Positions 15,901-46,587 of a stretch of 64,000 bases of DNA are shown here, in pieces. A program made the translations under genes and the position numbers. Source of the stretch: Ulva prolifera (lineage: Eukaryota; Chlorophyta; Ulvophyceae; Ulvales; Ulvaceae); NCBI GenBank assembly GCA_023078555.1, contig CM041196.1, positions 6,273,658 to 6,337,657 of the forward strand, given 5' to 3'. Below the pieces are notes generated by a model, which ran no database searches, was not told where the DNA came from, and worked only from the letters and a program-made list of their open reading frames with translations. Numbering within the stretch: the first letter of the stretch is position 1; every line of letters begins with the position of its first letter.

Positions 15901-18347
15901 TTGTGGACGCTGGCGCGAAGGAGCCGTACGCCGACATGATGCCTGCACGCACCGCGTGTATATCTGTGAATGTGCTGCATGGCCCATGCAGCATGGCACG
16001 TGTGCGTCCATACTCACGAGCTGCCGCTGTGTGTGGCAGGTCATGTGACGCCCCGCGCGCCACAAAGCTGCGTCGGAGTGGATCCTCTGCAGCCACAAGC
16101 ACAGCCAGCTACTGTACACTATTATAGCATAGCTCAGCCAAGAGCATGTGCAGCGGCACAGCACAGTGTCTCAAACGTGCCCAGGGCCAGGTGTGACAAG
16201 GGACGCATGCATATGGTTGTGTGGCAGGCGTGCCTTGCGCTGCGCCGAGGGTGAAGAAGATCTGGGCAGCTGCATCGGACCACGCCTCTCCGTTCTGCAG
16301 GATGGACATGTCCCATTCGCCGATGTACGACTCCACGCCGGCACGCGAGCCCTCCAGCGTGGCGTTGTAGATGATGAGGATTGCGAGGAAGAGCCACGGC
16401 AGCGTGACCGTGAAGCGCGCGGCCTTGCCGACGGACTTCACGCCCTTCCAGATGCAGAAGTAGCAGCACGCCCATGTGATCAGCAGGCCTGCACCGCGCA
16501 CCGCCGTCAATGTACATGTGAAGAAAAGCCGATCTGGGCAGACTACGAACTTTGAATTGAATGTGCCGGCAGGGCGCCCACGGCCGCACGGTGACGGATG
16601 TGTATAGGTGCAGCATCAGAAAGCCAACATGCACGGAAAGCGGAGCACATTGATGTGCGGGCGGGGGGGAGCGCACAGCCAAGGAGGGGCCCTGAGATGA
16701 CATGTGCGACTCCGTCGTTCAGAGAGTCTGGGGTCTCATTGAGGACAGATTCAGTGAAGTAGGCGCTGGAGGAGGGCAGGGGCAGCGCGCGGCCGGGGTC
16801 GGCGGCGCACTCGGCGTCCGCGCCACAGTCCTGCGCGGCCCACGGCAGCGGCCACGTGAAGGAGGCCCCGACAAAGTACGCCGCCCACGCGATGATCGCC
16901 GAGTAGTATGTCACTGCATGCGCACCATGCGTTTGACGCTGCGGGTGTTTATGCCAGCTCCACATGCATCACTGTGCATCATTGGTGCGGTGGCCAGCGC
17001 CTAACTGCAGCGGGGCGGCCTGGCGGGTATTCGCACGGCCGACAGGGCCATGTATTTGCACTCACATTTGAGTAAGCTTTTACAAAGGCGTCGGGGTCGT
17101 CATCGCGGATGCCCGAGTTCAAGGGATGCGTGCATACAACATCACGTGTTGCAGGACATGTGGCAGCCTGGACCCATATGCACAGTGCGGATCACCGGGC
17201 TGAGCTCAGTTACTCTTTTTGCAGCATGCGAATGGGAACCGAGGGGAGTGTGTTACATATAGAGCAGCACGTACCGAGCCCAAAGCCTCCGACGACAGAG
17301 ATGCCGCCGACACCGCGGCAGCGCTTGTTAATGGAACCGAAAGCCTCGATGTCACCCTTCTGAAACAGCCGGCCTGCATGCATGCGCTGTTGGGCGGATG
17401 CTGCGGGGATCTCACGGGAGAGGCTGGGCACCTGACTGAGGACAAGGCGGCACCTCCACTTTGCTGAGTGAGCGCTCTACAGCTGCGGCGTACACGTAGG
17501 GCCGAAGGATCTGTAGCCAAACGCTGGCAGGGCAGTCAGGCACAAGTGAGGCAGGACGCTGACCCCCGAGTGGCGCGGAGAGCGGGAAGTGAGATCAATC
17601 TAGGTAGTTACAAAAGAGCGAACGGGAGAAAACAAACACCGAAACCGAATCGCATCCGAATCAACTGCAACATACACTCACAAAGATCAATCTAGGTGAG
17701 GTCGGGCCACCGCTGCCAGGCGTAACAGATTATTATGAATGGAGTGTGAAGGCATGGTCGTATGCGTTTCTGGCGAGCCTGAGAGCATGCCGCGCCCGGC
17801 CGCAGCAGCGCATGCATATGCGCGATGGTCGCGAATGCAGCATATATATCACACCGCACGCAGCGCACACCACACAGCGCACAGCTCACGGTACACAAAG
17901 CACAGCACAAATCGCAGAATGCATGACGCGTGACACATCACGCAGAACACGTCACGCAGCACGCATCACGCGGAGTGCAGCACACATTGCAAATGTCCGC
18001 AGTGGGTGCTTTTGGGGGGGGGGGGGTTCATGTGCATGCATGTATGCACATGCTGGGGGCGGGTTGGGGGGAGGCGTACCGAGTGCGAGCTCCGTTTGCA
18101 GGAGCGGCAGGCCCATGGTGATGAGAAACACGGCGTAGGGGAGGAGGAAAGCGCCGCCACCGTGCTTGTACATGAGGAAGGGGAAGCGCCACACGTTGCC
18201 GAGGCCGATGCACGAGCCGACGGAGGCGATGATGAACGTCCAGCGTGACGACCACCGCTCGCGCTTTGCTGGTGCGACGGGCGCGGCTTTGGCTGCGGCG
18301 GCGGCGACCGCCGCGCCGCCTACATTGCCTGCTACTGGCAGTGCCAT
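12996..18347 (-). CDS. SLC6/NSS family Na+/Cl--dependent transporter, copy 2 (9 exons)
   Basis: Paralogue of the copies on either side. Exons: 18080-18347, 17275-17373, 16677-16913, 16234-16488, 15590-15942, 14795-15156, 14268-14514, 13693-13986, 12996-13088. The spliced frame gives 735 aa. All eight introns match copy 1 in position and phase (1,1,1,1,0,2,0,0). Two oddities are visible. TM1 reads [13 protein letters not shown], with Cys where the family and the other two copies have Ala; in LeuT this residue (Ala22) lines the Na1/substrate site. Intron 4 starts with GC (CAAG|GCACGC) and no in-frame GT lies nearby. EL4 contains CPAACGLC and a CC pair. The last exon ends FAMPEDDGWGAD and is recognised by its likeness to copies 1 and 3. 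The start is a true ATG. The N-terminus is Ala-rich and cytosolic. Confidence 0.9.
13119..13237. repeat. Short direct repeats in intron 8 of copy 2
   Basis: ACTGGTACCATGTG occurs twice (about 13125 and 13171). CTCAAGTTGAGCACATG also occurs twice in tandem (about 13195-13236), and its core CTCAAGTTGAG is an inverted repeat. The repeats lie inside an intron, and I see no function. Confidence 0.5.
14092..14265. repeat. CAGCACA-type short tandem array in intron 7 of copy 2
   Basis: Irregular repeats of CAGCACA, CATAGCACA and GCAGCACA fill most of intron 7. The same intron of copy 1 (3668-3698) and copy 3 (25250-25345) carries shorter arrays of the same strings. The array was therefore probably present before the transporter gene was duplicated. 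Confidence 0.55.
17592..17697 (-). mobile_element. Short retroposon-like element, copy 1 (with 14-bp target duplication)
   Basis: A 78-bp insert (17606-17683) in intron 1 of transporter copy 2 is flanked by the direct repeat AGATCAATCTAGGT at 17592-17605 and 17684-17697. Read on the minus strand (sense of the host gene) it contains TGATTCGG, GTGTTTGTTTTCTCCCGTTC and ends CTCTTTTGTAACT. Copies with the same 3' end occur at 43.9, 45.1 and 46.5 kb. It is the longest copy with clean ends. The long target duplication suggests target-primed reverse transcription. Confidence 0.7.
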
Positions 18348-18810
18348 TTCCGGTGGTGTGGCTTGAGGTGTTGGTCAGCTGAGTATTCCGCACAGACAGG
18401 TTTTGTGAACCTGCATGTGTGAAGGTCCCGTGATGCGTGCTGCGTGCTGCGTGGCGCGCGCACGTTCCTGCACCATGGTGCATGTGTGGCATGAAGACAG
18501 GCGGCGAAGCGGGCAACACAGCGAATGACAACAGTATAGCAAGGATACGATCGCCAAAAAGCCCAGCACACGCACACGACAGCACATGTCTGTGTACACA
18601 GATGTGGTGCATGCATATCCAAATACGATGTTGTGTTTGCTGCAGTATCTGAGATACATGTATGCATGCTGAACACATGCAGATACTTGTTATATACCTA
18701 GTAGCCCCCAAGACATGTACACGTGATCTTGCAAAATTGCAATGTCCTTACATGCATGCATCTCATAGCATATCACATAACATGGCTCCACAGTTGCCAC
18801 ATGGTCAAAG

Positions 18811-18903
18811 TCATGATGTTGATCGAAGTTGCGTTGGCTAAGTCATCATGTCGATCAGTTGCTTTGGCTAAGTAATCATGTCAATCGAATCTGCTTCGGC
18901 TCA
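18811..18903. repeat. Imperfect tandem repeat, three units of about 30-33 bp
   Basis: Three successive units share the pattern TCATGTtGATCgAa...GTTGCtTTGGCTAAG with scattered substitutions. The last unit is the most diverged. The array lies about 0.5 kb upstream of the start of transporter copy 2. Confidence 0.6.
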
Positions 18904-19861
18904 ACCTATCATCAATGAAGTCATTCAGGTCACAAGCAAATGTACAGGTTCGGAGTCACATAGCTGGTGCTGCCATATGCATGTGGTAACTGCAGCGCCA
19001 GCCACACTCAGTTGGAATAAACAATGTAAACTAACCACAATTGCGGTGCCTGTGCTATCTCGATATAGGTTGTGCACAGTGTAATGCACCGGTTGTGAAG
19101 CAGTGTGAGGGGCGCAGGCAGGTGTGCAGCACGTAGCACACGTGCCTTTCTCGATGTTTCAGGATCATTGAGGCTCAAGTGGCACCGTGTCCACAAGGCA
19201 CACCTTGGGCTCGTGGGTAAAACGAGGTGGGAGCTGTTGATCCCAGCGCAGGGTCAAAGGACGGGATGGCCGATTGACACTGATTCACATCCACGCCGCT
19301 ACGAAGTCACCTTAACTGATCCAATCACGCGCGATGCCTTGTCCTCCACAGTTCAATTCAAAGAGGTGCTTCACAAGCACGCGACCGAGCGGAGAGAACA
19401 ACCGTCGCGTTGGCTGCACACAATATCGAGACAGGTCCTCTTCGGCAGTGGTGTGCTTGTGCACATGCGATACAGATTCAGCATGTGGTGCTAGTCAAAC
19501 TCAGAAGGTTGGATCATATGCTATGTAATCAAATAATCAGCTGCATCAGCCTATATACTGCTTCACCAAGCATCGTTGAAGTTGGCAAGTCGCTTGCAAT
19601 TGCATCGTCGGTCGCGAGCAAGCGGTCCAAATCCCGTAGCCTCGTACGCGGTGTGAGGCACAAGCTGGACCGGAAACGTGCTCAACTGAGGTCACACATT
19701 CACTGCACCGCTTGCAGCAGCTCGATTCCGTGTTGTCGATGACTAGCGGCTGTCAACCATGACTACCGTGGTGAGCCAATGCTGTGGTGTGATCCGCCGG
19801 AGACGATGTTTTTGCTTGTCGTGCTGTTATTTCTCACCGTAATCATGACTGTGTCGACACA

Positions 19862-20090
19862 TCGCATGCTGTGGCTACTCCGCAGTTATGTTTCGCGTCG
19901 AAAGGGGCCCAGCAGCCTGCCAGCAGCCCCCAATCGCACCCAAACCACCAGGCTGCCAGCCTGCCAACTCCGGTGGCCAAACTCCAGCCTGAAACTCGCA
20001 TGTGCCATCATGCACCACACAGCCTCAAACTTGACACAAGTACCACTCTATATCTGCAGATTATGTCTACTCATTTTCAGCTGCATCGAA
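19862..20090 (+). repeat. Left arm of a diverged inverted-repeat pair
   Basis: This stretch matches the reverse complement of about 22605-22830 along its length. Shared blocks include GTTATGTTTCGCGT, AAAGGGGCCCAGCAGC, CTGCCAGCCTGCCAA, CGGTGGCCAAACTC, CACAGCCTCAAACTTGACAC and AAGTACCACTCTAT, with substitutions between them. The arms enclose about 2.5 kb. Similar peptides on opposite strands at these places come from the repeat and are not evidence of coding. Confidence 0.7.
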
Positions 20091-21030
20091 CACCTCTGCG
20101 TGACCTCGGCTCTGGTAGCTGTCGGCCCACCGTGATTGTGTCCGTGCCACCGTTCTCTCGCAAATTCTGTGCCTGCGATGACACAGTATGGCTTCATTTG
20201 ACTAGCTGCTGTGCCATACGAATGATATCATAGCAACGTGCTGTGTCTGACGTACAGCACCTGTATCCTCGTGTCGAATACGGCTTCTTCAGAGCGCAAG
20301 TAACGCGCAAGAAACCGTACCGTCGCATTGCCGGCTACATGAAAGCTTTCAACAGGTGCCTTACAGCGGTGCTCATGGATGCCATGTCAATGCCGCGCTG
20401 CGTGCGCACACAGGTCCTACAAAAACGTGCATGTCGTGTGGGTGAAGGATCGCAGCCCGTCTTTGAACACACATGCGAAGGAGGCTGCAGCCGATGTCTG
20501 TCCGAAACTGTAGCTGTAAGCGTGGATCAGGAACACGGGATATCTTGTTGCCAAACGGAACACCACCACAGTTGCCGTACAGGCGGTGTGTGCCTTACAG
20601 CCCAACTGCTGCAGCAGCATTGGTCCCCACGCTTGATTGCACTTGTTGCAATGGATTCATCGCTGCCTCGTTGCGGGAATTAATGTACTGATCGCGAAAG
20701 ACCGTGCCAGCACGCTGTCTTAACATAACTGCTCCACATCAAGGGCTGCAGATCTGCAGAAACATTGCAAACATGGCTGCCTATCCACCTCGCTGCATAC
20801 AGCTGCACCTCGCTACACATAGCTCGACACAACCACCAAAACAAGAGGTCCAATTCGATCATCGCTCAGACATCGTTGCAGAGCAAGAACATGCCTCTGC
20901 AACAAACTGGCAGTCATCAGCAGAGCAAGTGCAACACGCCCACCATTGATACTTGAGCGGGGTCTTAATGTACGTGCAAAGGTACCGGAGTATGTAATCT
21001 CTGCAATGGAATGAGTACATGTCAACACGG

Positions 21031-21505
21031 GTGTGCTGTGCGAGAGTCTGGTGCGCACAGCACAAGCACGGCCCATCAACATGCATGCAATGTGCAGCAG
21101 CTGCAGCTGAATATTGGCAGCCATACTCCTTGATACAGGTGCATCTACATATTCAAATGTCAGAGATGTGTGATCTCCAGTTCCAGAGCAGTGAGCTGGG
21201 GTGTGCTGTGCGAGTGCCGTAAATTTGCCGTATTGTGTGCCAGCACAAGCGCAGACCATCTCCATGCACGCAATGTGCAGCAGCTGTAACTGAATATTGG
21301 CATCCATAGTCCTGGAGATAGGTGCATCCACATATTCAGATTTCAGAGCTGTGTGATCTCCAGTTCTAGAACGGTGACCTTGGGTGTGCTGTATGAGTGC
21401 CGCAGATGTGCCGATCTGCGTGCCGGCACAGGCATATACCAACATACTGCACTCAATGTGCAGCTGAAGCTGCAGGTTAGTCGTCACAGTCCTTGTCATG
21501 TGCAG
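21031..21505. repeat. Tandem array of two full and one partial unit of about 170-183 bp
   Basis: Units begin at about 21031, 21201 and 21384 with GTGTGCTGTgCGAG. They share AATGTGCAGCAGCTG, CTGAATATTGGCA and TGTGTGATCTCCAGTTC. Identity is moderate. A minus-strand frame of 276 codons runs through the array with a repeated peptide core (IQLQLLHIACM). I see no known domain and no splice support, so I treat it as a noncoding satellite-like array. Confidence 0.65.
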
Positions 21506-21915
21506 AAAAGCTTGGGCCTCTATTGATGGAAGCAAGAATGGACAGGCGGTACATGATTCTGGGCTCTCTAGAGCTGAACTGCATTGCTCAGCACCAGTGC
21601 CTCCTGATCCGGCTGAAGGACAGCAGCTGCACTCTTTGTCCATTCGAAATTATACAACAGCTGCTCCTGTAGCTTTGTAGACGGTGCATGTCAGCTGGTG
21701 TGTGCAAGCGGGTTGCTGAGTTCTGCTGAGTTCTTCTTGAAACAGTCGTCGCAGCACATCCATTGCATCAAGCCAAAGAAGTCTACGCAAATGTAAGTAT
21801 ATTCTGTAAACTAATATACAAACTGCAGCCCGCAATGATAGGCTGGACACCGATCAGGCAGAAACAGTTCTGGATGGACCTCCACCACTGGAGGATATCA
21901 TGAATTTCTATTGCA

Positions 21916-22186
21916 TGATATGTGGCAATCCAGTGATATGGCCGCTATACCACTGGACCCTTGCACGTCGCGACGTGCAAGGGTCCAGTGGTATAGCGGC
22001 CATATCACTGGATTGCCACAAAAGCTGGGTCCTCTGAGATCTGAGGCTGGCCAGTCCTCCAGCTCCCCCGGTCCCAGCTTTTGTGGCAATCCAGTGATAT
22101 GGCCGCTATACCACTGGACCCTTGCACGTCGCGACGTGCAAGGGTCCAGTGGTATAGCGGCCATATCACTGGATTGCCACATGATA
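21916..22186. mobile_element. Palindromic MITE/foldback element with double 100-bp palindromes and 5-bp TSD
   Basis: Two identical, perfect 100-bp palindromes lie at 21921-22020 and 22082-22181. Each starts TGTGGCAATCCAGTGATATG and is centred on ACGTCG|CGACGT. They flank a 61-bp core (22021-22081) whose ends are inverted (AAAGCTGGG ... CCCAGCTTT). The 261-bp block is bounded by TGATA at 21916-21920 and 22182-22186, which fits a target-site duplication; it could be read as up to 7 bp. There is no coding capacity, so any transposase must act in trans. The lack of decay between the arms points to recent insertion. Confidence 0.85.
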
Positions 22187-22604
22187 GGATAAGCTAGAGA
22201 TTTTCTCACCGAATGCAGATCGGAGGCAACTGCATTGCTTTTGCTCTGCACTCAGCTGGAACTGCATACTCCACATATGAACGATGGAATCTACGTGCTG
22301 AAGTACAGATGCAGCGATGCCACTTGCAAGACCAGATTAGCCATACACAGGAAGTTTTGTACATACTGGCGTCCTTGGGACGTTCAGTGAGCGGCAGCGG
22401 TGCAGCAACGGTGTTGCCTGGCGATCACCACACCATCGACCATTTACGTCGCGTACAAAAAGCATCAGGTGTAGCAGCGAATCAAACTAATCTATGCTGT
22501 ATCATCACCAGCACAAGCTTGTGGAGAGACAGGTTGCACGGGCACCCCCACGCTGGCGAGCGGGGCCTATAGCTACCAGTGGCGAGATCACTCATAGACG
22601 CTCG

Positions 22605-22830
22605 ATGCGGCTGGAACTATGCAGTAACAATATTGAGACATAGAGTGGTACTTGTGTCAAGTTTGAGGCTGTGTGGTGCATGATGGCACACGCAGGTTTC
22701 AGGCCTGAGTTTGGCCACCGGACTTGGCAGGCTGGCAGCGTGGTGGTCTGGGTGCGATAGGGGGCTGCGGGCATGCTGCTGGGCCCCTTTTAACGCGAAA
22801 CATAACTGCTACTCCGTGGCATGCTTGGGC
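22605..22830 (-). repeat. Right arm of the inverted-repeat pair
   Basis: This is the inverted partner of 19862-20090. It reads, on the minus strand, GTTATGTTTCGCGT, then AAAAGGGGCCCAGCAGC and on to AAGTACCACTCTAT. The two arms differ by substitutions and small indels. The pair could be the ends of an old foldback element or two independent insertions of one repeat family. Confidence 0.7.
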
Positions 22831-24412
22831 CATGGACCAGACATGTCGAAGACAGCGCGCGCCAGAGCCTGCACATCCAAGTATGTGCACGCTGAGCGTG
22901 GTTCTGAATGATTATGGCTCCTGGAGTGCGTACTATTTGAGGTAGAAAGTGCACTGCCTGCTGGTTGATGGCTCCTGGACTGTGGCCTGTGGAGATATGT
23001 GTCGATGTTGCTCATCGATTGTGTTTGCGGCAGTTCAGCACAATTCACAAACAGGCAAATTTGCTATTAAGCACATGGGCTGACATCTATCCAGTGATGC
23101 ACACTTTGATCTTCAAGAGCTGCATGATGGGAAGATGGCAGTATCTCGAGACATAGGGCATCAGTAGAGCCCCAGGGCCAATGCAGCGATCGTAAAACAC
23201 ACTCAAGGAACATGACTTTTCTACAGCAGCCGATCTGAGACATATTCCGCGAGGTGGTGTCCAGATTGCGGCCAGGTAGCCATGCCACATCAGTGTTCGT
23301 GTTCAAAGCAGTCAAACAGTACAGCAGCTTGAGGTGGTCATTCAACAGGCATCGCCTGTCAAGAGCATGACCATAATCACAGTGACAAAGACTCATTTTG
23401 GCAGCATCGGAGCATAGTAGCGGCCTGCACAGCTGGGCGACAACTTGCAGCAGGCTGTGTCCATGCAAGCTGTGGCGTAAGCATGCAGTGAGTGGCACAT
23501 GTGGTTGTGGAGAACAGAACAGAATTTTTCAGTCCTGGACTGTGCATTTTCAGTCAGGTCGCGGGTGAAGAGCTAAAGAGTTGTGCCATGTAGCCTGCCA
23601 TGTTGCAGATGATTTACACTACCATCAGTATTCCTCTACAGTACGAAGCAATCTTTCGCCATCATCTCCTTCTGTCATATCCAAAAAAAACCTATCTGGC
23701 CCTTGCCTGAACATGTCTGACCTAGGACATGCTGTGTCCCCAGCAAGTCAAGCAATACCTCCTCGACCTCCCTCTCCATGCACGTCTGCAGCACAGACAC
23801 GGGCTTTCCTGCAAGCAAATCATCACACGTAATTTTGTGCTGCTACCATGTCCCTCCAATGTTATACAGGTTCTGCTCTTGCAGCAGCAGCTGGCCCTAG
23901 GGCACATCCCTCTGAGGGCCTGACTCCCATCCCAATGTCCACTCCAGATAACCATTGCCAGAGGGATGCTGCCAGCACAGAAGCAGGGGCACCTGAAAAT
24001 CCGAGTCCAAAACATCGCGTTGCCACACGGAAATGCCATGATGCATCAGTGAATCCTGCTCTGGCCAGTCTCCCCACCCGCTGGCGTGCAACAAGCACCA
24101 GACACACACTCACATGCCACAGCATGTTGATCACTGCGATTGCTACAAACGGACTCTACCTACGTCCTGCGATACAATCCACATGCCTCTTGAAGTTCGC
24201 TCAAGAAACTAAACGCCACATCACCACACCACCTGACACACCCTTGCGGAGGTCAGCCTTCTGGCAGCCTGCCGATGCCCTGCAGGGCAACGCACTGTGT
24301 GCTCAAGCGAGACCCATGTCCTCCGCCACTGCAGCTGTCGTGCATGTCCATCGAGAGGCTAGCAGCTGTTCGAAACGGCTGCTGCAAGGCCTGCGTCGGT
24401 CGGCCGCAACGC

Positions 24413-25853
24413 TCAGTCAGCCCAGCCGTCCTCCTCAGGCATCGCGAAGAGGGGTGCAGGCTGTGCCGGGGGGACCCCAGCCTCCATGCCATCAGCAGCC
24501 TGTTCCACCTGCAGCCACATCTGCCCTCACTCGAGCACATCGGGGACGGTGCCACCGCTGCCCATGAGCAGCAGCGATCACTGCGGCGGAAATATGTAGT
24601 GCCACTGGCCGGCAACTCTCCACAAGGACCGCATCAGGCACAAGAACCGCCAGGAACGCTTCACAGACACTCGTAACTATAGTCGCCGTCGTGTAATCGC
24701 GCAATTTTATGACTGCAGGCGCTTGTCTTTAGCATGCTTGGCTCGCTCTGTCTGGCATGCATGGCTCAACCGTGTTCCTTGACTGCTTTCACAGGATCAG
24801 TCATGCTTTGTGGACTCTGACTCGATTTTTGTTTTAATCAGTGTGCAGAGAACTTTTTTTGGCAATACCACAGCTGCAGGATGTAGGCAGAGCAGGCGCA
24901 CCTGCTTCACGAGGTCGTAGTTTGCGACGTGCTGGCCCGCGTCCTCGTCGACACCCATGATGTCCCAGAAGTCAGGGTACACGGCGAAGCCGATGAGCGC
25001 GGCGAACATGGCGCCGAGCACGAGGACGCCCGCGACGGAGTGCAGCCAGTCGGGGTAGTCCTCGTAGCCGTTGCTGTACGCCGTCGCGTCCACGATCGCC
25101 TGGTTCACAAACAGCCCGAGCAGCGCGGGCGGGCAGATGAACTTGATCGGCACGTCGAACGTGATGGTGTGGATCAGGCGGTCCCGCGGCGACGGCGCGA
25201 CCTGCACCACACGGCGGCCGGTCAGGGGTGGGGGACAGCGGGTAGGATGCACAGCACACAGCACACGACACGAGTTCTATAGCAAGTAGACCGCATGACA
25301 CATGTCAGCAAAATACAGAACACAGCACACAGCACAGCAAGCAGCATTGCGTACCTGGAAGGTGTTGCGGAGGTTGCGGGTGCCCGCAAATACCCAGACG
25401 TCGAGCCACTCCTTGAGGGTTTGCTCGGGCTTGTCGCGGCAGACAAAGCCGAGGACGACGGCGACCGCAAACACGGCGATGCCGACAGCGAAGCCGATGC
25501 CGACGTTGACGGCGGGGGCGGTGGCGTAGTGGAGGCACCCTGATATGCCGACGCCGACTGCGCTTGCAGCCAGGAAGCCCCACGTCAAGAGGATCGCACT
25601 CCTGCAGACCTTCACAGATTAGCAACATATCTGTATGCTACGTCGTATGGATACAGCATAGAATCCACACAAGCTGAAGCCACTGCAGGTGGTGCGCACC
25701 ACAGCAGAGTACACAGTATTTCCAGCTGGAGCAAAAAAAAGTCACATGCCTTAGGCTGAGGGTAACGCACATGAGAATGTACATGTGAGCTACATCTGTA
25801 GTATACCTCACGAGTCCCCGAGGCAACAGCAGTGTTTTAAGGTCGCAAAAAAG

Positions 25854-25890
<37 letters not shown>

Positions 25891-35261: not shown

Positions 35262-38136
35262 GCAGAGTGTAGGCTGTGCGGCCTCAAGGTGCAGCAGCTC
35301 TGGGCAGCTGTGTGTGGCGCAGCTCCGTGGCGGCCGGCACCTCGCACTGTGGTGACAGCGGCAGCGCCCCCCTGCATGCGTTACGTCGGCACGCAACCGT
35401 CGGCAAGGGAGTGCGCTCGGCAGGGGCCGGCGAGGCCTGGCAGCAGGCCGGCAGGTGCAGCAGCTGCGCCGGCCCGACACCAACTTGTCCGTGCGCTGTG
35501 GGCACATTGCAGAGAGTTCTCAAATCAGGGAGTCTCGCTGGTGCGGCCCCTGCACGACTGCAGCGCCCCTGCCACACGCCCGGGCCTCTCGGCCACCCCG
35601 GGCCCCCCCTTGCACGAGGTGTTTGCAGTCGCGGGCCTCACGGCCACTGACTGGTACGCCGATCGCCCTTGGGAGGGGTGAGCTACAGTCAGTTGGGGTC
35701 AGCAGGGGCGAGGCCCCGAGCCCTGCCGAAATCTCCTGCTTTTAGGAGAAGTGTCTACAGCTGTGCTGCCGATGAACTGTCTGCATTGCCGGCATTGGCT
35801 GCATGCTGCGCGCGCGCGCGCGTGCAGCCTCGGCAGCGCAGCAGGTCGGACAGGGGCTTCACTGTGTCCGAGTGGTAGGTGGGATGCTGGTGCGGTGTGA
35901 GGGACTTTGCTCTGGTAGCATTGGCCGGAGCTGCGGTGCGATCTTCAGGCATCGTCAGGGACGTGTGGGCAGTGCCCGGCGTGGCCGCAGTGCTGCGACC
36001 AAGCATGCAGGGCCGCGACGCGCGCAGCAGTGGTTGTAGCTGTACCCCCATAGCCAGGGCGCCTGAGCGCCGACAGCTTTACGCACTTGCACGATTGTAA
36101 GGTCCCCTGTGGCCACTCGGACACTCACGTCTGACTGGTTTGTACAGAAATTTTGATTTACTCAGCCGTATCCTGATATTTGTTTGTGCTGCTGTGTCTG
36201 TGCAAAGGCTGCACACTTTCAGGGCGAGCGGTTGGCGGAGTTCAACACATGTGCATGCCTGTCGCGGGAGGGGGGGGGGGGGGGGGGAGAGGGGGGGAGC
36301 CTTCGATGGCGCGGCTTGTGCTGCAGCGCCTGCGGCACCTTGTGCGGCAGGCGGGCGCGGCCCGAGGGTGGATGTGGGGTACCCACCGCAGCCGGCGCGG
36401 CGTGGGGGGGTGGCCGATGGATGCAGGATGGACGCAGGGGGCCTGCGCCGGACACCGTCGTGGCGTCACAGGAGGATGCAAGGGCGGCGGCGATGGCGGA
36501 TCTGCGCATGCATTGCTGGGCGACAGGCGGCAGCGGGCCGCGGTCGCGACCTTTGGCGCTGACAGCCCGTTCTCAGCCACGAAACCCATCGGCTGTTTCC
36601 AGTCCTGGCGGCAGTTATGAGGGCATCGTCTTAGTCAGCAAGAAATTGCCGGGGTGAATGTCTAGAGAGTGCACTGTATGCGTGTCTCCTGTGGACATCA
36701 TCACGGTAACATCCATTTGTCAACCATATATATAGACAAGCCTGCCACAACCACACGCGTCCTGCTTACTCCTGCTTACGGATCCTGCTTGCAAAGGCAA
36801 TACGGATCTCAGATCCGCGCAAATGTCCCCAGAGTGCCAACAATAGCCAGTCCCAATGTCGCCCCAAAATTTTACTAACACAAGACTCTGGCCTTTAGAT
36901 TTGGTACTCTCTTGAGGACTGCCGACCACAGTCACAGTCATGGTGTCAGAGTATCAGGTCAGCATTGTCCATGCGACTCATCTGTGGTCAATCTCATGAC
37001 TACGTACACCGACACAATTTCAGCACCTTCCTCACCGTATCTGAGCCTCGAGGCTGAGCATGTAAAGCCTGCTTCATCAACCTCTGCAAATCTCGTGCAC
37101 CCATACATGCGCTGCAAGTCTGTACACCTGCTGACGCTATTGCAGTCATGCAACATAAAGCATTTAATTGCATGCGTATGTAATTCGTATGCTATGGCAT
37201 AGCGCGATGCATATGCCCGTCTCGGAATTGCGGAAGTACTAGCTACAGCAGTGCTGTACAAAATATCTTTGTTGTCCCCGAGCTATCGGGACCACTCTGA
37301 TTTTCACATCGGAGCATCCGCTCTGTCTTTCAATCTGCTCGGCGTGTCGGGTGCATTTTTCTTTTGTGCGCGCGCGCGGGGTGAGAGGAGCTCCTCGCAT
37401 ACGCCGCGCATTTGCTCGTCGCGTACGATACACGGAAGAAACGCTGTCACATGCAACAACGGGAAAAGCAGAATTTCATATATGCTTGACCCTTACGCCA
37501 GCTCTAAGCGCTGTGCATCACACTCGACTTGCAAGCAGTTCAGTGCAGCGGTCCGCTTCAGCCTCCAGCTGGATCCAGCTCAGCCCTACCGGCACGTGCA
37601 CATGTCACATCATTATATGCAGAGCAGAACATTCTTGAATCACTCCAAAATTTCGCGCTCCGCGCAAATTGCTCGGACGGCGCGGGGCACTCCGGTGGAG
37701 CTCTTCGCAAACGCGCGGCTTGCGCCGCGCTTGTGCTCGTCGCGCACCGGAGCTGCGCGGAGTATCTCCGCGCCGTCCCAGCAAATTGCGCGGGATTTCC
37801 TCCAAAAAATTTTCGCCCGACTTTCGGCCCGACTGCAGAGCACTGAGTACTAGTGCCCGTTGCAAAATCTGATTTACAGCAAGTACAGCCGGGCTGCACA
37901 ACGTGAGCACGCGGCCGTACGGGCATATCAGCTAAATTTTAGGTTGACCATCGAGAAGCCAGAGAAAGGGGAGCACAGCTTCCGAAAGACGTGCACAGCG
38001 CATCCCCAGCCACCGCAGAGCAGGGGTAAACTTCCAAACACCGCGTGAGAAAGGCGGGGGCTCGATCCACGACGCGACGATGGCTGGAGCGGGTGGGTGA
38101 ACGGTGATGTGCAAATTTAAAGCGGGCCCCAATCTC
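35262..38136. other. 2.9-kb spacer, no supported gene
   Basis: This is the 3' flank of the hydrolase gene followed by low-information sequence. It has an 18-base G run at 36270-36287 and a GC-rich patch with CGCG strings at 37640-37850. A 200-codon plus frame (37251-37853) has no motif and unusual composition, and I do not support it. Confidence 0.45.
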
Positions 38137-38144
38137 ACAGAATT

Positions 38145-39760
38145 TTGAAAAGAGTGAGATGTTGGGCTATAGCTGCCCTTGTAGCACATGGCAGGCATTC
38201 CGTGTCGCTGAAATCTAGAAGCAACAGCTCTTGCGGTCGCGGCCGCTGTGGTGCCTCGCGAGTAGTGCTCTACATTGGGGGGGGGGGGGGGGGGGGATTT
38301 CTCCTGTCCTGGGCCAGCCACAAAACTAGGAAAGAACTGGAGGATGTTCTCGGTGATGAGCAATGGGAGTTGTCATCAGAACAAGTGGCAGCAATCTGCG
38401 AGTGTCTTGCTAATCTGCTTGAGGTCTTTGGGGAACCATGGAAAAGGTCCAAGCCGTGTATCTGAGGAATTCAGATACATTCAATTCATTCAGAGAACGG
38501 ATGAGACTAGAGATGAACGGCTTCGCCGCAGCTGACAGTACAGGGCCGGTGTGCCGTGTCCTCACCAAATGATGCAACAGATTTTGATTGCAACGGTTTG
38601 TCAGGAACACCTTGTTTCCTGCAGGGGTTCGGGCTCTTATGATTGTATGGTCTTGGACTCTGAAGGACGACACAACCCTCACAGACACCGGTATTGAGGC
38701 TGCAGGTCTACCACAACCAAAGCTTGACTTGGCTACAATTGACAGTATGGTTTCATGGCCACATGAGAACAGGGGCCTCCTCGCAGACAACAGCGAGGAG
38801 TCATGGTGCACCATTTGCCATTGTCCACATCACCGGCAGACCATATAAGAAACCACAACGCCAGCGGGACAAGACACTCCTCCACGTCAAACAACAGTTC
38901 ACCATGCTCAAGCTGTTCCAAGCATCCGGTGAGTTATCCTCTTCCGGGCTCCAGTTTTTCCAGAGGTACCACAAACTTCTTATTTGGAAAGTTCCCATCC
39001 CAGACTATGAGCCAGCGACTGAACAGTGTCCTGAGGACGATGCCACGGAGGCTGAAGACAGCCCTGTGATGGAGGACCAGGCCACCGCTGCAGACAATCA
39101 TACAGATGTTCGTGTCGCAATACCTCGTCGAGGGTACCTGAATGTGGCAGGGGTGTTCATGCTCAATCAGATCGTACCCTTCATGGTATGCCCAGCTCGA
39201 CGCATCTACCAACAGTGACATCACAGCACCAATGCAGCACCAAAGTGGGCCTTGCGCAGACCCACAGAGACCATTGTGTAGGAGGTCTTGTTCAACACGC
39301 ATGGCGTCCCGCCCCCCACCAACTTTGCAGCCTTTGTGGATGCCGTCACCTCAGTCGTTCCAGTGAAACAGGTGCAAGATGAGCAGCATGAAGCAGATGA
39401 GGATGACGCCGTTGTACCATCAGAAGATGAGTTCCAATCAGACAATGAGGCTGCTACGCGTCTTGTCAAACTACCTCACGCGAAGGGTGAACATGACAGG
39501 GCTGAACGCCTGCGCAAGAGAACATCAGCTCCCAAGCGTGCGGGAGGTCAGGTTGCATCCACATCTGGCTCAGTGCCAAGCAGCGAACCCCTCGACTGCA
39601 GAGCATATCCAGACAGTGGTCGAGACAGACGCACCCCACGGTGAAGTCACCGTTGCAGTTGACATGGATGTACCGGTACGCATACCAGCTTTCCAGATCT
39701 TTCCAGTACGAACGGATGACCAGTTTTGCAGTGACACCTTCATGTTAGCATGTGTGTAGG
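38145..39760 (+). pseudogene. Frameshifted unrecognised coding relic
   Basis: Protein-like segments follow one another on the plus strand but in different frames and broken by stops. One lies at 38310-38462 (KELEDVLGDEQWELSSEQVA). The next is at 38470-38570 (FRERMRLEMNGFAAADS, then a stop). A third is at 38600-38800 (LFPAGVRALMIVWSWTLKDD), which shifts frame near 38800 into a run up to 39218 (GELSSSGLQFFQRYHKLL). An acidic stretch follows at 39288-39644. Composition is even and protein-like, yet no single frame or plausible set of introns joins all parts. I do not recognise the family. A decayed mobile-element or multicopy gene is a reasonable guess, not a finding. A 20-base G run sits just upstream at 38277-38296. 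Confidence 0.35.
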
Positions 39761-42700
39761 CCCCAAAACAGGGCCACGGCCAGACGTCGGGACAGGGGCT
39801 CCCATTACCTGCCCCAGAAGCTGCAGGTTCAGCCAAACGCCCAGCTCGGAGCCAGAGGAAGTGCCAGTCTGCTTACCGGAAGAAGTCGCGCATTTGACTT
39901 GGTGAGAGCTGCCTTATCCACATGTCTGCCTGTGTGACTGCAGGCCTCAGTTCATCAAAGGCCTGGCCATGCCACCTTCTGTGATGGCTGTGGTTTTTGG
40001 TTTTGCATGTATGGCATCTTGTCAATTGCAGTGTGCAAGTGGATTATGCAGTAGATTCATGTGTGCAGGCCACTCGATTATGGGCATGGGAATGGGTCTA
40101 TGCGAGAGTGGGCCGCTACCGGAGGTACTGACTTGTGGTGGTCGGTGCTGTGAAGTGCTGCACCACAGGGCCGTAGGCAGCAGCAGTGGGGTGTGGATAG
40201 GCCAGCGGGCCAGGATGGGTTGTGAGGGCCAATTGTAACCCATTTGCATGTCTACGGTTGTTGATAATGACTTTTTGTGGCAGTGTATCAGTGATTTGGT
40301 ATATGGCACAGCGCAGTACACTGTTTTGCACACCCTGGTTGCGCACCCGCTAAAAGGTCGCGCGCCTTCCATGGTGCACCCGGAGGGTGAGCCACAAAAA
40401 AGGGCGTGAGCAACTAAGATGGGTGCGTAATACGGGGGTGAGCAAGACGCCAACGCTTCGCATTGGACGCATACACTGCTGCAAATATCGAGCAGGCGCA
40501 GTTGCAGATCGTATGCTTAAACGTGCGTATGATGTGGAGCAATTGTTGCCAATACACACTGTCGCCAGGCAGGTGTGCCCGGCGACGTACCCAAATCACT
40601 GCTTTGAGGCTGGTAATCACGCAGACTGGAAACACATGACCACACAGGATAATTAAATAGCCTGCGTAGTCGTTTTGCAGTCCGGCGCACATTGCTGCGC
40701 GCAGCAGACTCGAAATGGGTGCCGCGACCGCAAGTGATGACAACTCAACCAAGTACCATGATAACAGGCACAAAATCACAAGCATGACAGTTGTGGAACA
40801 TACTTTACGAAACTGTGCGATCTTACGGCAAGTCTGATGATCCTTGCCACCCTCCCCGCCCTTCCCGGAAGCAGCTGAGCCGCACACCGCATTCTCCTTG
40901 CTGATGTTTCGAGCCCGATCCCAGCCCAGAGATACACCAGATGTTGAAAGACAACATCTAATCCAGTGCATAGCGTGGCAGATCGCAGCATACGCAGAAT
41001 AATTGCTACATACGAGCATGTCTGCACCGAGCTGCGGCATGACACAGGAGCCCATTGGCACAGGCATAGACATGTTACGGGACAGCAAACGACACAATGT
41101 ACATGTCAATCGAGTAAACAAGTCATATCGACCTCCGGGCGGTGTCTAGTGTCTACCGCGCCAGCGACACGGGGCCTCGCAAAAGGCAACACTCTCAAGC
41201 CCACGTACGCCAGACGGCCCCGATCACGTCGTTACGTATCATTGGCGCGCAGCAGAGCAACAATGTAACATTTTTGTCCATTGAAAGTGCATCGGGAGAG
41301 TGGTTTGTGCCAAGCGCGGGCCCAACCAGCCCGATTCGCCATGATACCTCCCATGCAAGGACACTCGCAGAGGAGCCAAAATGCGTCCGATCTTGCCCAG
41401 AACGATGAGGCTCACTTCAGCACAATGTGAACTACCTTACAGACTGTTCAGAGCAGCTTTTGGAGCCGTTTCGACGATTTATTACATCGCGAATCCGTGG
41501 CTCACCCAAGTTGCTCACCCACGGGTGAGCAACCCTCTCGTTGCTGCTGTGTCACACGTGTCGGGGGTTTATTGAGTCTTGCACAAGTGCACGATCAGGC
41601 ATCACATTGGAGAGGCAGGAGCAGGTGGGACTGCTTGTCAAGAGGTCTGGCAATTCGGGGCAGCGAGCAGCGAGCTGCTATACGTCTCACATATGTGCTG
41701 CCGGCCATGCATGCTGCAAGTCTTGGGCGCCCTCCCCAATGCACTGACAATGGGCCATTTGGAGGGCCATCAGTACTGGCATTGCACACATGTGTGCACC
41801 CGCAGGCCATGAGAAAGATAGCACAGCCTCAAAATTATCACTGAATGATATTGGAACGGGCGAAGCATATCAACTGTTGCGCAGCTGCTCTAGCTCCGTT
41901 TCTCGATGGTAAGCATGCAATGTAGCCGATATGGAGTCATATGCATGGTTCAAAAACAGCCACGTCCACCACGAAGTTCACTCTCCGCGGAGCTCCGTAG
42001 CATGCATTTGTACGCTACATGTGTATCATGCATACGCAGAGGGCGTGACTGCAGACCCGCTCAAGCCCGTCAGGCTGTCGCCATGCGGCAGAAAATATAT
42101 TTCCTGTCATATTCTCCAGAGATGGCTTGAGTTCTGGAAGTCTATGGTGCAGGCTTCCATCCCATGAGGACAAGTTGTTTCCTCATGCATACGAGGACGC
42201 ATGATCGGTCATGTTAACGGGACAGTAGTGGCTGTGCATAGAACCGCGGCTTCGCGACAACACCTCCGCCACCCTAGACGGTCTTCTCCACGCTGCCGGC
42301 TTCCTCGCCATCTGGCTCGACGCGTCGCATCTCGGCTATTCAATTGCGCACACGCGCAGAGCAATACTGGCCTTCCACCCTGGCATCCTGGAGGATGACT
42401 TCTACGCGGGCAGGGATCTGTTTCTGCGCCTCTTAATGGCTGTGTGATGTAGTGGCTGTGTGTCTCTCATGCAGCTGTTTTGTAGTCTACTGTGATTGTC
42501 TGTCATTGTCACTGATAAGTTTGTTGTGTTTGGCTGTCCTCCTGACACGGACATAGCCATCTAGGCTTTTCTTTCTTTTCCTGCGTTTTTTGGACAATTG
42601 GCCTAAATTGTCGTGCGGCTGCTTCCGCACGAGCTGGAGGTGCTGCGGAGGTGCATTTGCGTGCCTCTGCATGCATTGCCCACATTTGCGGGCGGCGTGA

Positions 42701-43257
42701 TGTGCCTTATCTCGTTATCTTATCTCGTGTCGGTTTTTCTGGGTTCTGGACTTTTCTTCCAGTCTCAGTCAGTCTCGCTCTAGAGGACTGAATATTAGGG
42801 AATTTGCGAGCTGGTTCGGTGTTGGTTGCTTGACTCACGTAGGTGTCTGATGAGGCCCTTTGGCAAGGCCGAAACATGTTATGCCGGTCCGTGATGTTCA
42901 TGTAATACAGCATCAACCAGTGAACTTTCTACCTCAGTTAGTACATAGAACCAGCTTCGCGCAGAATGCAAGGCGGCCGCTGCCACGTCACGTACGCGAT
43001 CTCACCCAGCGTCATCATTATCATGTGATGCTCGGCAATTGTTCGATCCTTGATTATACGCGTAGCTCCGCGGAGCTCCGGCGCGGAAAAACCGTGATTT
43101 CACACCTAATTCGAAGCAGCCAACGCCGGCTCGAATGCACCGACCTGACACTCGAGAATCACAGGCCAGTGTCTATATTCAGCCACTTCACTGCCTACAC
43201 CAACTTTCTGTTGAATTGGCGTTTCAGAGATCCAGACGGCGACTCAAGAGTTGAATC
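39761..43257. other. 3.5-kb spacer upstream of the first propeller gene
   Basis: No supported gene. Frames are short and antisense-overlapping. The perfect palindrome AGCTCCGCGGAGCT occurs at about 41985 and 43064. The right end is the 5' flank of the propeller gene. I see no RNA gene. Confidence 0.45.
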
Positions 43258-46200
43258 ATGTACAAGGCTAAGCGGGTACTGTTGTCCACCGCGGCATGCG
43301 CTGCCGTGCTCTTGGCGAGCTGCTGCGCTATGGCTATGCCGGTACACAATTTCAGCGGTTTCATGATGGTTGCTAACCGTGGTGAGGGCACGGTCTCGTT
43401 CATCGACCCGGAATCACTGGAGGTGACAACCACGTTCACCATGCCTGACGACGGCGAGCCGATGTACATCGCCTACGATTACTCCAGAAGGTCACGTATT
43501 CTGGTGGCAGATCGAGCGAATAGCAGGCTCGTGGTCGCACAGCTGAAGGGCGACGAAGTGAGCCTGATTGGCCGAGGCAAGCGCTTCATTCCGCTGCCCG
43601 AGGGTGCCTTCCACACCATGAGCACCCAGTTCTTCGTCAACGATGTACGTCTCCACTCGCTCATGATATGTTTCAGCAGCTCGATACGTCGATATGGCCG
43701 CGGCTCCCCTGGCTGAGCATTGGCTACCTCTACAGTAGCTCAAGCTCTATGCGCATGCTGTCATTGCATCGACATGCCAACGTCTTGGGGATGGTGTCTG
43801 GACTGGTCCAGACAGGTACCGATGCCAACGGTTTCGTTCCGGAACACCTGCACTGCGGGTCCCTTTTTGTTTTTTTTTTTTTGTGTGTGAGTGTATGTTG
43901 ATGTTGATTCATGTGATTCGGTTTCAGTGTTTGTTTTCTCCCCTTCACTCTTTTGTAAAGCATCAGCTATGTTTTTTTTTTAACCATGATTGGTCGTCGA
44001 CTTGCGCGCGCAACTGGTGGTACTGTGATAGGTGACGGCACCTCAAACCCAAACCATGTGATCATTGAGGGTATCACAAAGTCGCTTTGATGCAATGTGT
44101 GTGGGGTAGGCCGCACGAGCGATGCGGGGTCCCGGTAGTGTATGCATGGGCTGCGGCCAGGACGCCGTGCCCAGATGGTGCACCGTCGCAAGCCCGAGAG
44201 CCACCGCTTCAAAGCTGGCGTCCTGTTTTTGAGCTGCTTGCACGCTTGCCGAGGCCTGTCCGTAATTCGGTGGCTCACGTTGCCGCCTTGCTTGTGACGT
44301 ACCGGGCTTGAAGAAGCTCTATAGAGCTTATATATGCACTGACGCACCGGACTTTTTGGGGTCTGTGGGCGGAGCTGGTGAGGCGGAGTGGCGCTGTGTG
44401 TTACAAGGATAAAGCCGGAGGGGCAGGTGGCACCGCCAGGACAACGAGGAAGCACACGAAGAATGCAAAGCACACGTGCCAGGAGAGCAACAGCCACCTC
44501 GAATCCGCCCACACTCAGGGCCATGGCACAACAATCGCCCGCACACGGCACCCCGCCACAGCCCGACCGGAACCCATCGAACGCGCACCCACACACCCCC
44601 ACACCACACCCACCCCGACACCCGCGTCCCCGCTCAATCCCCCACCACACGCACCCCCACGCCCGCATACAACACCACCCCACCGCCCGCGTGGCTGCGG
44701 CGTCCCAAGCTGGCAGCCCGGCCGGCGCTGGCGCCGGCCCCATGCGCAAGCCGCCGGGGGGGTTCGCCCCCCCAGCCCCCCTAACCCCCACGCAACTCCC
44801 CAACCGCACCTGCCCCCCGCTGCAATCCCGCACCCGACCAGTTTGCCGAATAGACAGTGGCGTGTGCGTGATGCCGTATGTCTCACTGGCAATGTGCATA
44901 CGTCCACAGCTGGTCGCATGCGGCGACGGAACTGCAGCAGCAGACACAGCAAAGGGCTGAGTCAGCACTGAAAGAAACATAGTTTTAAAGCAAGCGTCAG
45001 CAGTGGAGGCTGAGATGGTGTGCTGTGACAGCATGCGGTGGATGTGGGTGCAGCTGTCCCGTGCAGGCCATGCATATGCTAGCATATGGTTTCAGTGTTT
45101 GTTTTCTCCCGTTCACTCTTCAGAAAGCTTTTGTAAATAATGCTAGCATATGGTCAGTTTGAATGCCGCATGTGCGGTGCAGCTGTCAAGCAAGACACAC
45201 CCCAGATGCATTGCAAAAGAGTGAAGGGAGGAAGACAAGCACCACAAAAGAGTCTCAGCCGAGACAGCAGCGACACACACACCCCAAATCGTTTCACAGA
45301 TGACGCATGCAGTCCCGATAAGCTTGCACTGGGGTCACCAGAGTTCCGGAAGTGTTCGTCAGCGACGAGTACACGGGGTTCGGAAGTGATAGTGATGTCA
45401 CAGGTCAGCGAACGGGCACAGATGAACACAGCAAAAGAATGTCTTCCGAACAGTGATGTTTGACGTGTGCGCATTTGCCGTGCAGCCGGAGACTTTCGAT
45501 TCTATCCGCCCCGTGGCAGTCACATCCTCGGATATCGACAACGTCACCACCATCCACGACCTCGCGTCGCTGCGCCTCGTTGACACGCTGCCGCTGCCGC
45601 CGCTCGTCATGGAACTGGGCGGCAAGCCGCACGACCTGACCATCAGCGGCTTCTTCGCCTTCGTAACCTACCTCGGCACCTCGGACGGCAAAGGCTACGT
45701 CGCCAGCTACATTCGCGCCCGTGGCCACTACCGATTCTTCAGGCTCCTCGAGACCGCCGCTGACCCCCACGTGAGCCCCTCTCCCCCCCTCGTGATGGCG
45801 CTGTACACACCTCCGTCCACATGGCGTGAGGTGACCGGGTGTCGTTGTGTGCGAAATGCCGTTGCTGCCTTGTGTCTTCGGTGTCCCTAATCTTGTCATG
45901 TGCGCGGACTCGCGACTCTGTGGTGCAGGTGCATAAGTAGCACAGCAGCATGACACGCCGCTGCACTTGCGCTGCAATACATGTACTCACACGGCATCCC
46001 CGGCCATCATCAGTCCAGGCACGCGCTTGAACTCCACCGCTGCAATGCAGGTGGCCATCCGCGATGGCACGGAGCTCGTGATTGCGGCACAGGGCCCCTC
46101 CGACGGCGATGGCGAGGTGCTGTTCGTGCGCGCCCCTGAGCTCACCGTCCTCAAGCGCCACGTCCAGCCCTCCCCCCACGGCACCTCCATCTCTTTCGAT

Positions 46201-46515
46201 GCCTCAACCCTCTACGTCACCAACATCGCCGAGGGCGGAGCAAACGCGGTCATCACATATGATATGACCACCCGCGAGGAGCTGCCCGGCTGCGCGGCAC
46301 TCACCACGAGCGAACCGGTGCCGCACAACCCCGCCGCGACACTGGACCAGGGGAAGCTGTTCATCACGCACAGTGGCGCGGAGGCGACGGTGACGAGCGT
46401 GTTTGACATCGATGAGAGTGGCTGCCCCGTGCAGAGCAGCGAGGTGCTCATCACTACCGGCCTCAATCCCTTCGGCATCTGTGTCGTCACGGACACGGTG
46501 GACCGAATGAAGTAG
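43258..46515 (+). CDS. Secreted YncE/lactonase-like beta-propeller protein 1 (3 exons)
   Basis: Exons 43258-43644, 45486-45770 and 46051-46515 join in phase 0 to give 378 aa. Residues 1-27 are a classic signal peptide (Lys/Arg, then LLSTAACAAVLLASCCAMA), so the protein should be secreted or lumenal. The rest has propeller-blade signatures: VANRGEGTVSFIDPESLEV, GEPMYIAYDYSRRSRILVAD, ELGGKPHDLTISGFFAFVTY, HGTSISFDASTLYVTNIAEG and QGKLFITHSGAEATVTSVFD. These resemble YncE-type and lactonase-type seven-bladed propellers. The family often binds or senses small ligands, but no catalytic residue can be named. Intron 1 is unusually long (1841 bp) and contains two short retroposon-like inserts. A third such insert starts right after the stop codon and duplicates the last codons. 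A tandem paralogue follows 1.4 kb downstream. Confidence 0.85.
43865..43991 (+). mobile_element. Short retroposon-like element, copy 2
   Basis: Homologous to the insert at 17606-17683 for about 75 bp: GTGTGAGTGTATGTTG, TGATTCGGTTTCAGTG, TTTGTTTTCTCC, TTCACTCTTTTGTAA. It lies in intron 1 of propeller gene 1 in the gene's sense. Poly-T runs (TG plus 10-14 T) border both sides (43868-43882 and 43970-43981) and may be the target duplication, though low complexity makes this uncertain. Confidence 0.55.
44560..44830. repeat. C-rich low-complexity block in intron 1 of propeller gene 1
   Basis: The stretch is dominated by CCCACAC, CCCCAC and CACCCC strings on the plus strand, giving G-rich runs on the other strand. 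It is probably a simple repeat; G-quadruplex potential is possible. A 372-codon antisense frame crosses it but is a by-product of the composition. Confidence 0.5.
45076..45154 (+). mobile_element. Short retroposon-like element, copy 3 (5'-truncated, 15-bp target duplication)
   Basis: A 49-bp insert (45091-45139) starts TTCAGTGTTTGTTTTCTCCC and ends CTTTTGTAAATA. It is flanked by ATGCTAGCATATGGT at 45076-45090 and 45140-45154. It lacks the first half of the element seen at 17606-17683. It lies in intron 1 of propeller gene 1, sense orientation. Confidence 0.7.
45213..45247 (-). repeat. Degenerate antisense copy of the same short element
   Basis: The minus strand reads GGTGCTTGTCTTCCTCCC then TTCACTCTTTTGCAA, a diverged match to the 3' half of the element. 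No target duplication is evident. It lies in intron 1 of propeller gene 1. Confidence 0.4.
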
Positions 46516-46587
46516 CTCGGATGAGATTCGGTTCTGTTTTTTTTTCCTCCCGTTCACTCTTTTGTAACCACCGAATGAAGTAGCTCG
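46502..46587 (+). mobile_element. Short retroposon-like element, copy 4 (18-bp target duplication covering a stop codon)
   Basis: A 50-bp insert (46520-46569) contains GATTCGGTTCTG, a T run and CTCCCGTTCACTCTTTTGTAA. ACCGAATGAAGTAGCTCG flanks it at 46502-46519 and again at 46570-46587. The left copy is the end of propeller gene 1 (Arg-Met-Lys-stop plus 4 bases), so the insertion lies four bases after the stop codon and duplicated it. Confidence 0.8.

Follow-up and report, generated by a model that had tools for sequence, protein, structure and literature searches.

Short inserts with a shared TGTAA end in Ulva prolifera are very probably 5'-truncated copies of an R2-like LINE

Introduction

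Long interspersed nuclear elements (LINEs) that encode a restriction-like endonuclease (RLE) include the clades CRE, R2, R4, NeSL and HERO (PMC4640811). Their proteins are described as carrying, in order, a zinc knuckle, an RH motif and a PD-(D/E)xK variant with its catalytic lysine in KX2KY (PMC5678591). In R2, homology between the 3' end of the RNA and the target can anneal to the nicked strand, and target-primed reverse transcription (TPRT) can also start without homology (PMC10499050). Here we describe a group of short inserts in a 64,000-nucleotide stretch of the green alga Ulva prolifera (contig CM041196.1, hereafter C1; C1:6273658-6337657, called the window). They are very probably 5'-truncated copies of an R2-like RLE LINE that is active now or was so recently, probably produced mostly by abortive TPRT.

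RLE LINEs differ in how they choose their targets. HERO contains many non-specific families and some that are specific to microsatellites (PMC4640811). The HERO clade and BLAG of the German cockroach resemble the window LINE as RLE LINEs without strict site specificity (PMC4640811, PMC7650587), a likeness of insertion habit rather than of clade placement, and the host of the window LINE belongs to the green lineage. Utopia of reptiles is an RLE LINE with 20-bp duplications (PMC4640811), and 5'-truncated copies are usual in R2 (PMC7650587), both features that recur here. The (TG)n-specific Togen LINEs of fish (PMC4640811) recall one sister family described below, which is followed by CA-type sequence; this likeness concerns the sister and not the window family, and is one of flanks rather than of tested relationship. 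With R2 and RLE LINEs in general, the window LINE shares a single open reading frame (ORF) with a reverse transcriptase (RT), a zinc knuckle and RLE-type motifs, and R2 proteins are its best PDB profile matches. It differs from them in its dispersed insertion, in that no N-terminal finger was found, in the spacing of the knuckle, in inserts mostly shorter than 127 bp and in its TGTAA end.

Three other systems invite comparison. Dualen, a green-algal LINE, has both endonuclease types, RLE included, and the fish elements UnaL2 and UnaSINE1 have TGTAA-repeat tails. Human L1 has an apurinic-type endonuclease and a poly(A) tail, and its typical truncated copies are far longer than the tails in the window. 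Truncated L1 insertions are nevertheless similar to them in their duplications of about 15 bp, their truncation and their junction microhomology (PMC2912911). Dualen is present in relatives of Chlamydomonas (PMC8226300); in the window LINE a Pfam search found no apurinic-endonuclease domain. The fish pair shares TGTAA at the 3' end with the window family, in which it is single in 100 copies and accompanied by no unusual tail fold. In the open PMC papers to which our literature search was confined, Repbase lying outside its scope, we recognised no report of this element.

Results

Short inserts that continue into a LINE

The first-pass annotation of the window had described its short inserts as a stand-alone retroposon family. 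In the host genome (88.9 Mb in 44 contigs), however, longer copies continue unbroken into a LINE 3' untranslated region (UTR) and ORF, and lengths run continuously from about 21-22 bp to about 3.8 kb. The annotation had proposed to look for a LINE with the same 3' end, and such a LINE is there: its long copies have a 3' UTR of about 106 bp ending TTTTGTAA, with an upstream ORF ending ...GLEDAILPD*. Since the longer tails are collinear with this UTR and ORF, we read the short inserts as LINE tails.

The genome contains 869 exact matches to the 21-mer CTCCCGTTCACTCTTTTGTAA (446 plus, 423 minus), and 1996 copies of a 23-mer of the 3' end when up to 3 mismatches are allowed; the reversed-pattern control gave 0 in each case. 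The 21-mer had 0 matches in a viral contig collection. Far fewer copies extend upstream: counted at 23, 127, 520, 1520 and 3584 bp from the 3' end, they number 1996, 329, 121, 49 and 31.

Individual copies were studied in the first 100 of the 869 exact matches in contig order, all of them on C1. Fifteen were dropped before duplications were counted, as they exceeded the fetched flank in length, were nested or had been aligned to a neighbour, leaving 85 usable copies with a median length of 58 bp: 12 of at most 30 bp, 34 of 31-60, 18 of 61-109, 18 of 110-200 and 3 longer. Because the dropped copies include several of the longest, this sample leans short, and the genome-wide counts are the better measure of length. 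The sample also holds at least three duplicate pairs of one locus (2553/1254793, 4338127/4507869 and 4349416/4363386). The tail pairs L001/L013, L018/L019 and L077/L078 have the same flanks on one contig, as later locus duplications or assembly duplicates.

That most 3' ends in the genome come from copies under 127 bp in length (1996 against 329), and that the window copies measure about 47-77 bp, could also be expected of a separate, short, non-autonomous SINE-like family (SINE, short interspersed nuclear element) borrowing the 3' end of the LINE. We consider this highly improbable and reject a SINE: the 85 copies begin at 52 different positions with no common 5' end, and the longer ones are collinear with the LINE UTR and ORF. 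No other head was seen in the 100 listed flanks, where no search aimed at RNA-gene heads was made.

The copies in the window

A BLAST search of the window with a genomic long LINE copy recovered the four copies where the annotation had placed them, with E values of 7e-29 to 8e-9 and the common end TTTTGTAA. They and their target-site duplications (TSDs) are as follows, in window positions.

Copy 1, TSD, 3' copy: 17592-17605, minus strand, 14 bp exact, ACCTAGATTGATCT
Copy 1, extra bases: 17606-17607, minus strand, 2 bases after the end of the tail
Copy 1, tail: 17608-17683 (BLAST span 17608-17682, 96%), minus strand, about 76 bp, 5'-truncated, end CTCTTTTGTAA
Copy 1, TSD, 5' copy: 17684-17697, minus strand, 14 bp exact
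Copy 2, tail: 43882-43958, plus strand, about 77 bp, 90% identity (BLAST), T-rich on either side
Copy 3, TSD, 5' copy: 45076-45089, plus strand, 14 bp exact, ATGCTAGCATATGG; 15 counting a shared T
Copy 3: 45090-45136, plus strand, 47 bp, made up of about 37 of LINE tail and about 10 extra bases just 5' of TTTTGTAA
Copy 3, further extra bases: 45137-45139, plus strand, 3 bases behind the tail
Copy 3, TSD, 3' copy: 45140-45153, plus strand, 14 bp exact
Copy 4, TSD, 5' copy: 46502-46519, plus strand, 18 bp exact, including the final codons of an ORF with its TAG stop (46513-46515)
Copy 4, tail: 46520-46567 (BLAST 46517-46567, 87%), plus strand, about 48-51 bp, beginning 4 bp after the stop codon
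Copy 4, extra bases: 46568-46569, plus strand, 2 bases behind the tail
Copy 4, TSD, 3' copy: 46570-46587, plus strand, 18 bp exact
Possible fifth copy: 45211-45280, minus strand, 71% over 70 bp, E 0.002, end CTCTTTTGCAA; possibly an older, degraded tail

The three duplications reported earlier as 14, 15 and 18 bp are exact over 14, 14 and 18 bp, the value of 15 counting the shared T of copy 3. No clear target duplication was seen around copy 2 (43882-43958) when its flanks were inspected by eye. The fixed 3' end also stands, with one qualification: the BLAST match of copy 3 covers 45088-45120 on the plus strand (97%), and its terminal part is separated by the extra bases inserted inside the 3' end (CACTCTTCAGAAAGCTTTTGTAA). 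Variable 5' truncation, long duplications, LINE machinery and unusually short inserts, all proposed from the window alone, are supported.

From ORFs read by eye, copy 1 lies inside a minus-strand gene, which we take to be sodium:neurotransmitter-symporter-like. Copies 2 and 3 lie in an intron, and copy 4 past the stop, of a plus-strand gene that is presumably beta-propeller-like. This fits the proposed sense orientation within introns or a 3' UTR; the models were drawn by eye, and four copies out of four in sense would arise by chance in 1 case in 16, which is weak. Similar genes, beta-propeller-like by eye, stand in tandem at 43255-46515 and about 47844-50145, and BLAST finds tails only in the first.

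Duplications and junctions

Target duplications exceeded the 99% null in 52 of the 85 usable copies, compared with 5 of 420 permuted pairs; the threshold is the 99th percentile of those pairs, whose tail includes duplicate-locus pairs. The TGTAA end could also come from a recurrent host poly(A) signal or regulatory motif unconnected with insertion, TGTAA being a chlorophyte poly(A) motif (PMC1868727). It has next to no chance of explaining the inserts and is refuted for the family as a whole: 21 bases recur exactly at 869 places with a reversed control of 0, together with truncation and duplications. The suggestion that the sequence might be a conserved motif at non-insertion sites, raised with the first description of the inserts, therefore fails for most copies (52 of 85 with duplications above the null, 33 without).

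Duplication lengths and target bases were taken from the 50 above-threshold TSDs with at most 7 extra bases. These TSDs are 8-22 bp long, and between TTTTGTAA and the repeat there are no extra bases in 14 and 1-7 in the other 36. The base before the repeat is A in 54%, as is its first base, followed by C in 42% and C in 40%. Where an exact TSD has no extra bases, the target has A just before it in 8 of 11 cases (p 5e-4 against 22%), as though the terminal A of the RNA had paired with a T of the primer. An overlap of at least 1 nt with the element was seen at the 5' junction in 26 of 41 exact repeats (p 1e-6 against an assumed 27%). The folding of the 3' UTR tail RNA is not unusual (z 0.23), and neither is that of a sister tail (z 0.97).

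The likeness once proposed to fish LINE/SINE pairs with terminal TGTAA repeats is superficial: besides this unremarkable folding, no copy out of 100 has a further TGTAA directly behind its end. A LINE with a tandem TGTAA tail was rejected on the same count.

Tails are clustered in the C1 sample, with 13 of 99 neighbouring gaps below 500 bp against 0.44 expected under uniform spacing. By eye, L102 (C1:10886177-10886916) consists of two tails joined 5'-to-5' with 2 bp between them and no duplication seen, L003 of two head-to-head tails with duplications 1 bp apart, and L008 of a tail nested within a tail. Such clustering (L102, L003, L092, L008) could be due to targeting of the element's own copies or to TPRT from both ends of one break.

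The parent LINE

The parent element is about 3.8 kb long with a single ORF of 1199 amino acids (aa) from its first ATG (copy L037+L041). Three loci were read upstream, giving an ORF of 1199 aa, an open frame of 1107 aa and a broken frame (294 aa open). Two long copies are 98.2% identical over about 3.8 kb, and another matches at 98.6% over 3.3 kb. Among the RT matches listed, 25 cover all or nearly all of the query at 94% identity or more, and ten of these lie in open frames of 1199-1201 aa. Given these ten frames, the family is young and probably active.

In the 1199-aa ORF, Pfam recognises RVT_1 alone (6.2e-11). A profile built from four families of this genome and searched against the PDB places R2 proteins first (5.7e-15, 9.2e-15 and 3.7e-13), with L1 ORF2 following from 1.4e-6. 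Behind the RT, the motifs RH[DN], [GRA]D[IV], DV and K-x3-[YFW] occur in order in all seven ORFs tested, from the window family and its sisters. A zinc knuckle C-x1-C-x8-10-H-x3-C is present in six of the seven, L112 having Y for one C; L117, the eighth ORF read, does not contain that block in its frame and was excluded from the test. The motif order is the one published for RLE LINEs (PMC5678591). On its motifs and RT relationship, rather than on its fold, we class the parent as an RLE LINE.

Neither Pfam (E up to 1) nor a pattern search shows an N-terminal C2H2 or CCHC finger in the ORF, and Pfam gives no Myb domain and no apurinic-endonuclease domain (E up to 1). R2 proper was rejected, as the 100 copies stand in varied flanks and not in 28S ribosomal DNA and no N-terminal finger was found; Dualen was rejected on the missing apurinic-endonuclease domain.

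Sister families and their flanks

The genome holds at least 141 RT matches, 140 of 318 first-look candidates having been scored, and four further groups were read, at about 50% (L112, L113, L115), 46% (L114, two copies), 44% (L117) and 42% (L116). The 50% group lacks a C2H2 pattern; its 3' end is TGTGTAACTT, and the three flanks in which this was read are unlike one another. In the 46% group a single C2H2 pattern stands at the N-terminus and the 3' end is CCTTTGTAA; CTACAT or CTATAT comes next in 15 ends out of 15, and the one L114 5' flank inspected is a CATA repeat too. This suggests that L114 targets ACAT-type repeats, with the proviso that part of the 3' CTACAT/CTATAT may be element sequence. 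In the 42% group (L116, L118-L120) there are two C2H2-like patterns, and behind the 3' end, CTTTTTCCTTTGTAA, all 3 ends read continue with CACACA or CACATC; L118 is the one of the three with a long CA run.

Finger patterns thus accompany repeat-like flanks and their absence accompanies dispersal, across only four groups with the window family included; the Pfam support for the sister fingers lies under the cut-offs (0.52 and 0.0063).

Sister copies also stand head-to-tail at a spacing of 4.1-4.3 kb, in L114 (C1:9393100-9402600) and in pairs such as C1:4493260/4497516, with extra short 3' tails between or behind them. Other RVT_1 matches number at least 150 in the genome, 150 of 452 candidates having been scored. 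Many of them lie in open frames of 1300-1700 aa, and judging by these frames several further RT-bearing families look intact.

Truncation falls off with distance from the 3' end

From the genome-wide counts, the hazard of stopping per bp is, from nearest to farthest from the 3' end, 1.73%, 0.25%, 0.09% and 0.022%, a drop of about 80-fold; the patterns counted were 23-32 bases long, with 2 mismatches at 127 bp and 3 elsewhere, so that old copies have possibly been missed unequally. Since the hazard falls with distance from the 3' end, synthesis looks abortive first and processive later.

Short 3' fragments of LINE RNA serving as templates for a non-abortive RT would predict the same insert structure. 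We regard this explanation as possible but doubtful: the fragments must keep the 3' end, and the steep fall of the hazard would have to mirror RNA decay.

Alternatively, copies could have had ordinary lengths at birth, the long ones being purged later by selection or recombination. Insertions inside genes could lead to such purging, and the sister L114, with 1127, 479 and 109 copies at 26, 136 and 1520 bp from the 3' end, retains more long copies than the window family (42.5% against 16.5% reaching about 130 bp, and 9.7% against 2.5% reaching 1520 bp). Later loss nevertheless seems unlikely to us. In 52 of 85 copies the duplication directly adjoins the truncated 5' end, so that these were born short, and the 869 copies whose last 21 bases match exactly are probably young.

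A putative poly(A) signal at the 3' end

In a published survey, UGUAA ranks first among poly(A) pentamers in every chlorophyte studied except Pyramimonas, and generally lies 15-20 nt before the cleavage site (PMC1868727). LHC genes, with 38 matches in the genome, have chlorophyll a/b-binding proteins as their best PDB hits and place the host in the green lineage. The window family, L114 and L116 end at or right after TGTAA, and the L112 group within about five bases of it. Given the published signal, the tails may carry a poly(A) signal. By analogy, LINE RNA could be cut in flanking DNA, with each insert bringing a putative poly(A) signal.

The TGTAA of copy 4 is the sole one within 1.2 kb after the stop at 46513-46515, and the tandem paralogue of its host gene has none within 1.2 kb. 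In two LHC genes, TGTAA stands 236 and 465 bases after the stop in the first, which also has AATAAA at 395, and 485 bases after it in the second. The window as a whole has 76 TGTAA against a permutation mean of 64.5, with several permutations higher, which amounts to little enrichment.

A more far-reaching scheme may be sketched, which we think rather unlikely. The LINE RNA would end exactly on the poly(A) signal of the host, so that the transcript would be cut about 15-20 nt further on, in flanking DNA, and acquire a target-derived tail. In repeat-anchored families this tail would pair with the next repeat and anchor TPRT. In the window family, fingerless and inserting anywhere, it would find no pairing, reverse transcription would abort early, and the LINE would spray cassettes of 20-100 bp flanked by duplications. 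Against such target-derived tails, the repeat-flanked sister is strongly truncated as well, and the use of TGTAA by the host is putative. If the scheme is true, poly(A)-signal cassettes can end or redefine host transcripts, as behind the stop at 46513-46515.

Discussion

The inserts belong to a known kind, 5'-truncated copies of an RLE-type LINE. What is unusual is the extent of truncation, and the shared TGTAA end is suggestive. On the reading that they arise mostly by abortive TPRT, the LINE protein would nick DNA with little sequence preference, weakly for A/A and then CC. Priming on the nick would take place at the UAA end of the LINE RNA, leaving 0-7 extra bases before the duplication. 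Synthesis would usually halt before more than ~100 nt had been copied, and slight microhomology, usually of 1-3 nt, would then help to join the short cDNA end. More tentatively, the absence of an N-terminal DNA-binding zinc finger would explain why this family is dispersed while its fingered sisters are flanked by repeats.

Several observations weigh against this account. As regards the parent, a single-sequence PDB search gave three R2 proteins at 0.006-0.008 and an unrelated synthetase that was equally good (0.0061 against 0.0063). The knuckle spacing C-x1-C-x8-10-H-x3-C differs from the published C-x2-3-C-x7-8-H-x4-C (PMC5678591). Alignments of the RLE part to R2 kept the expected order but fell far below significance (domain independent E value, i-E, 2.8e2 or worse), and the C-terminus alone, searched against the PDB with phmmer, matched two unrelated proteins and no RLE. 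As regards the inserts, 33 of 85 usable copies have no duplication above the threshold. Shared 5' breakpoints are in weak excess (p 0.02 for the number of shared positions, p 0.39 for the maximum), so that hot spots are weak. The repeat-anchored-looking L114 is strongly truncated too, though less. Finally, short RNA templates or a later removal of long copies could also underlie what is read here as early abortion.

Pieces of 20-80 bp tend to be dropped by repeat finders, and tails such as these may therefore go unnoticed. They may be a hidden source of insertions of 20-100 bp, each with a possible poly(A) signal. A single genome here holds related RLE-type LINE families in which finger patterns are present or absent, which adjoin repeats or are dispersed, and whose 3' ends, where read, lie at or near TGTAA. 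Such a set of families makes it possible to test how RLE LINEs choose their targets, and what decides whether TPRT aborts or runs on.

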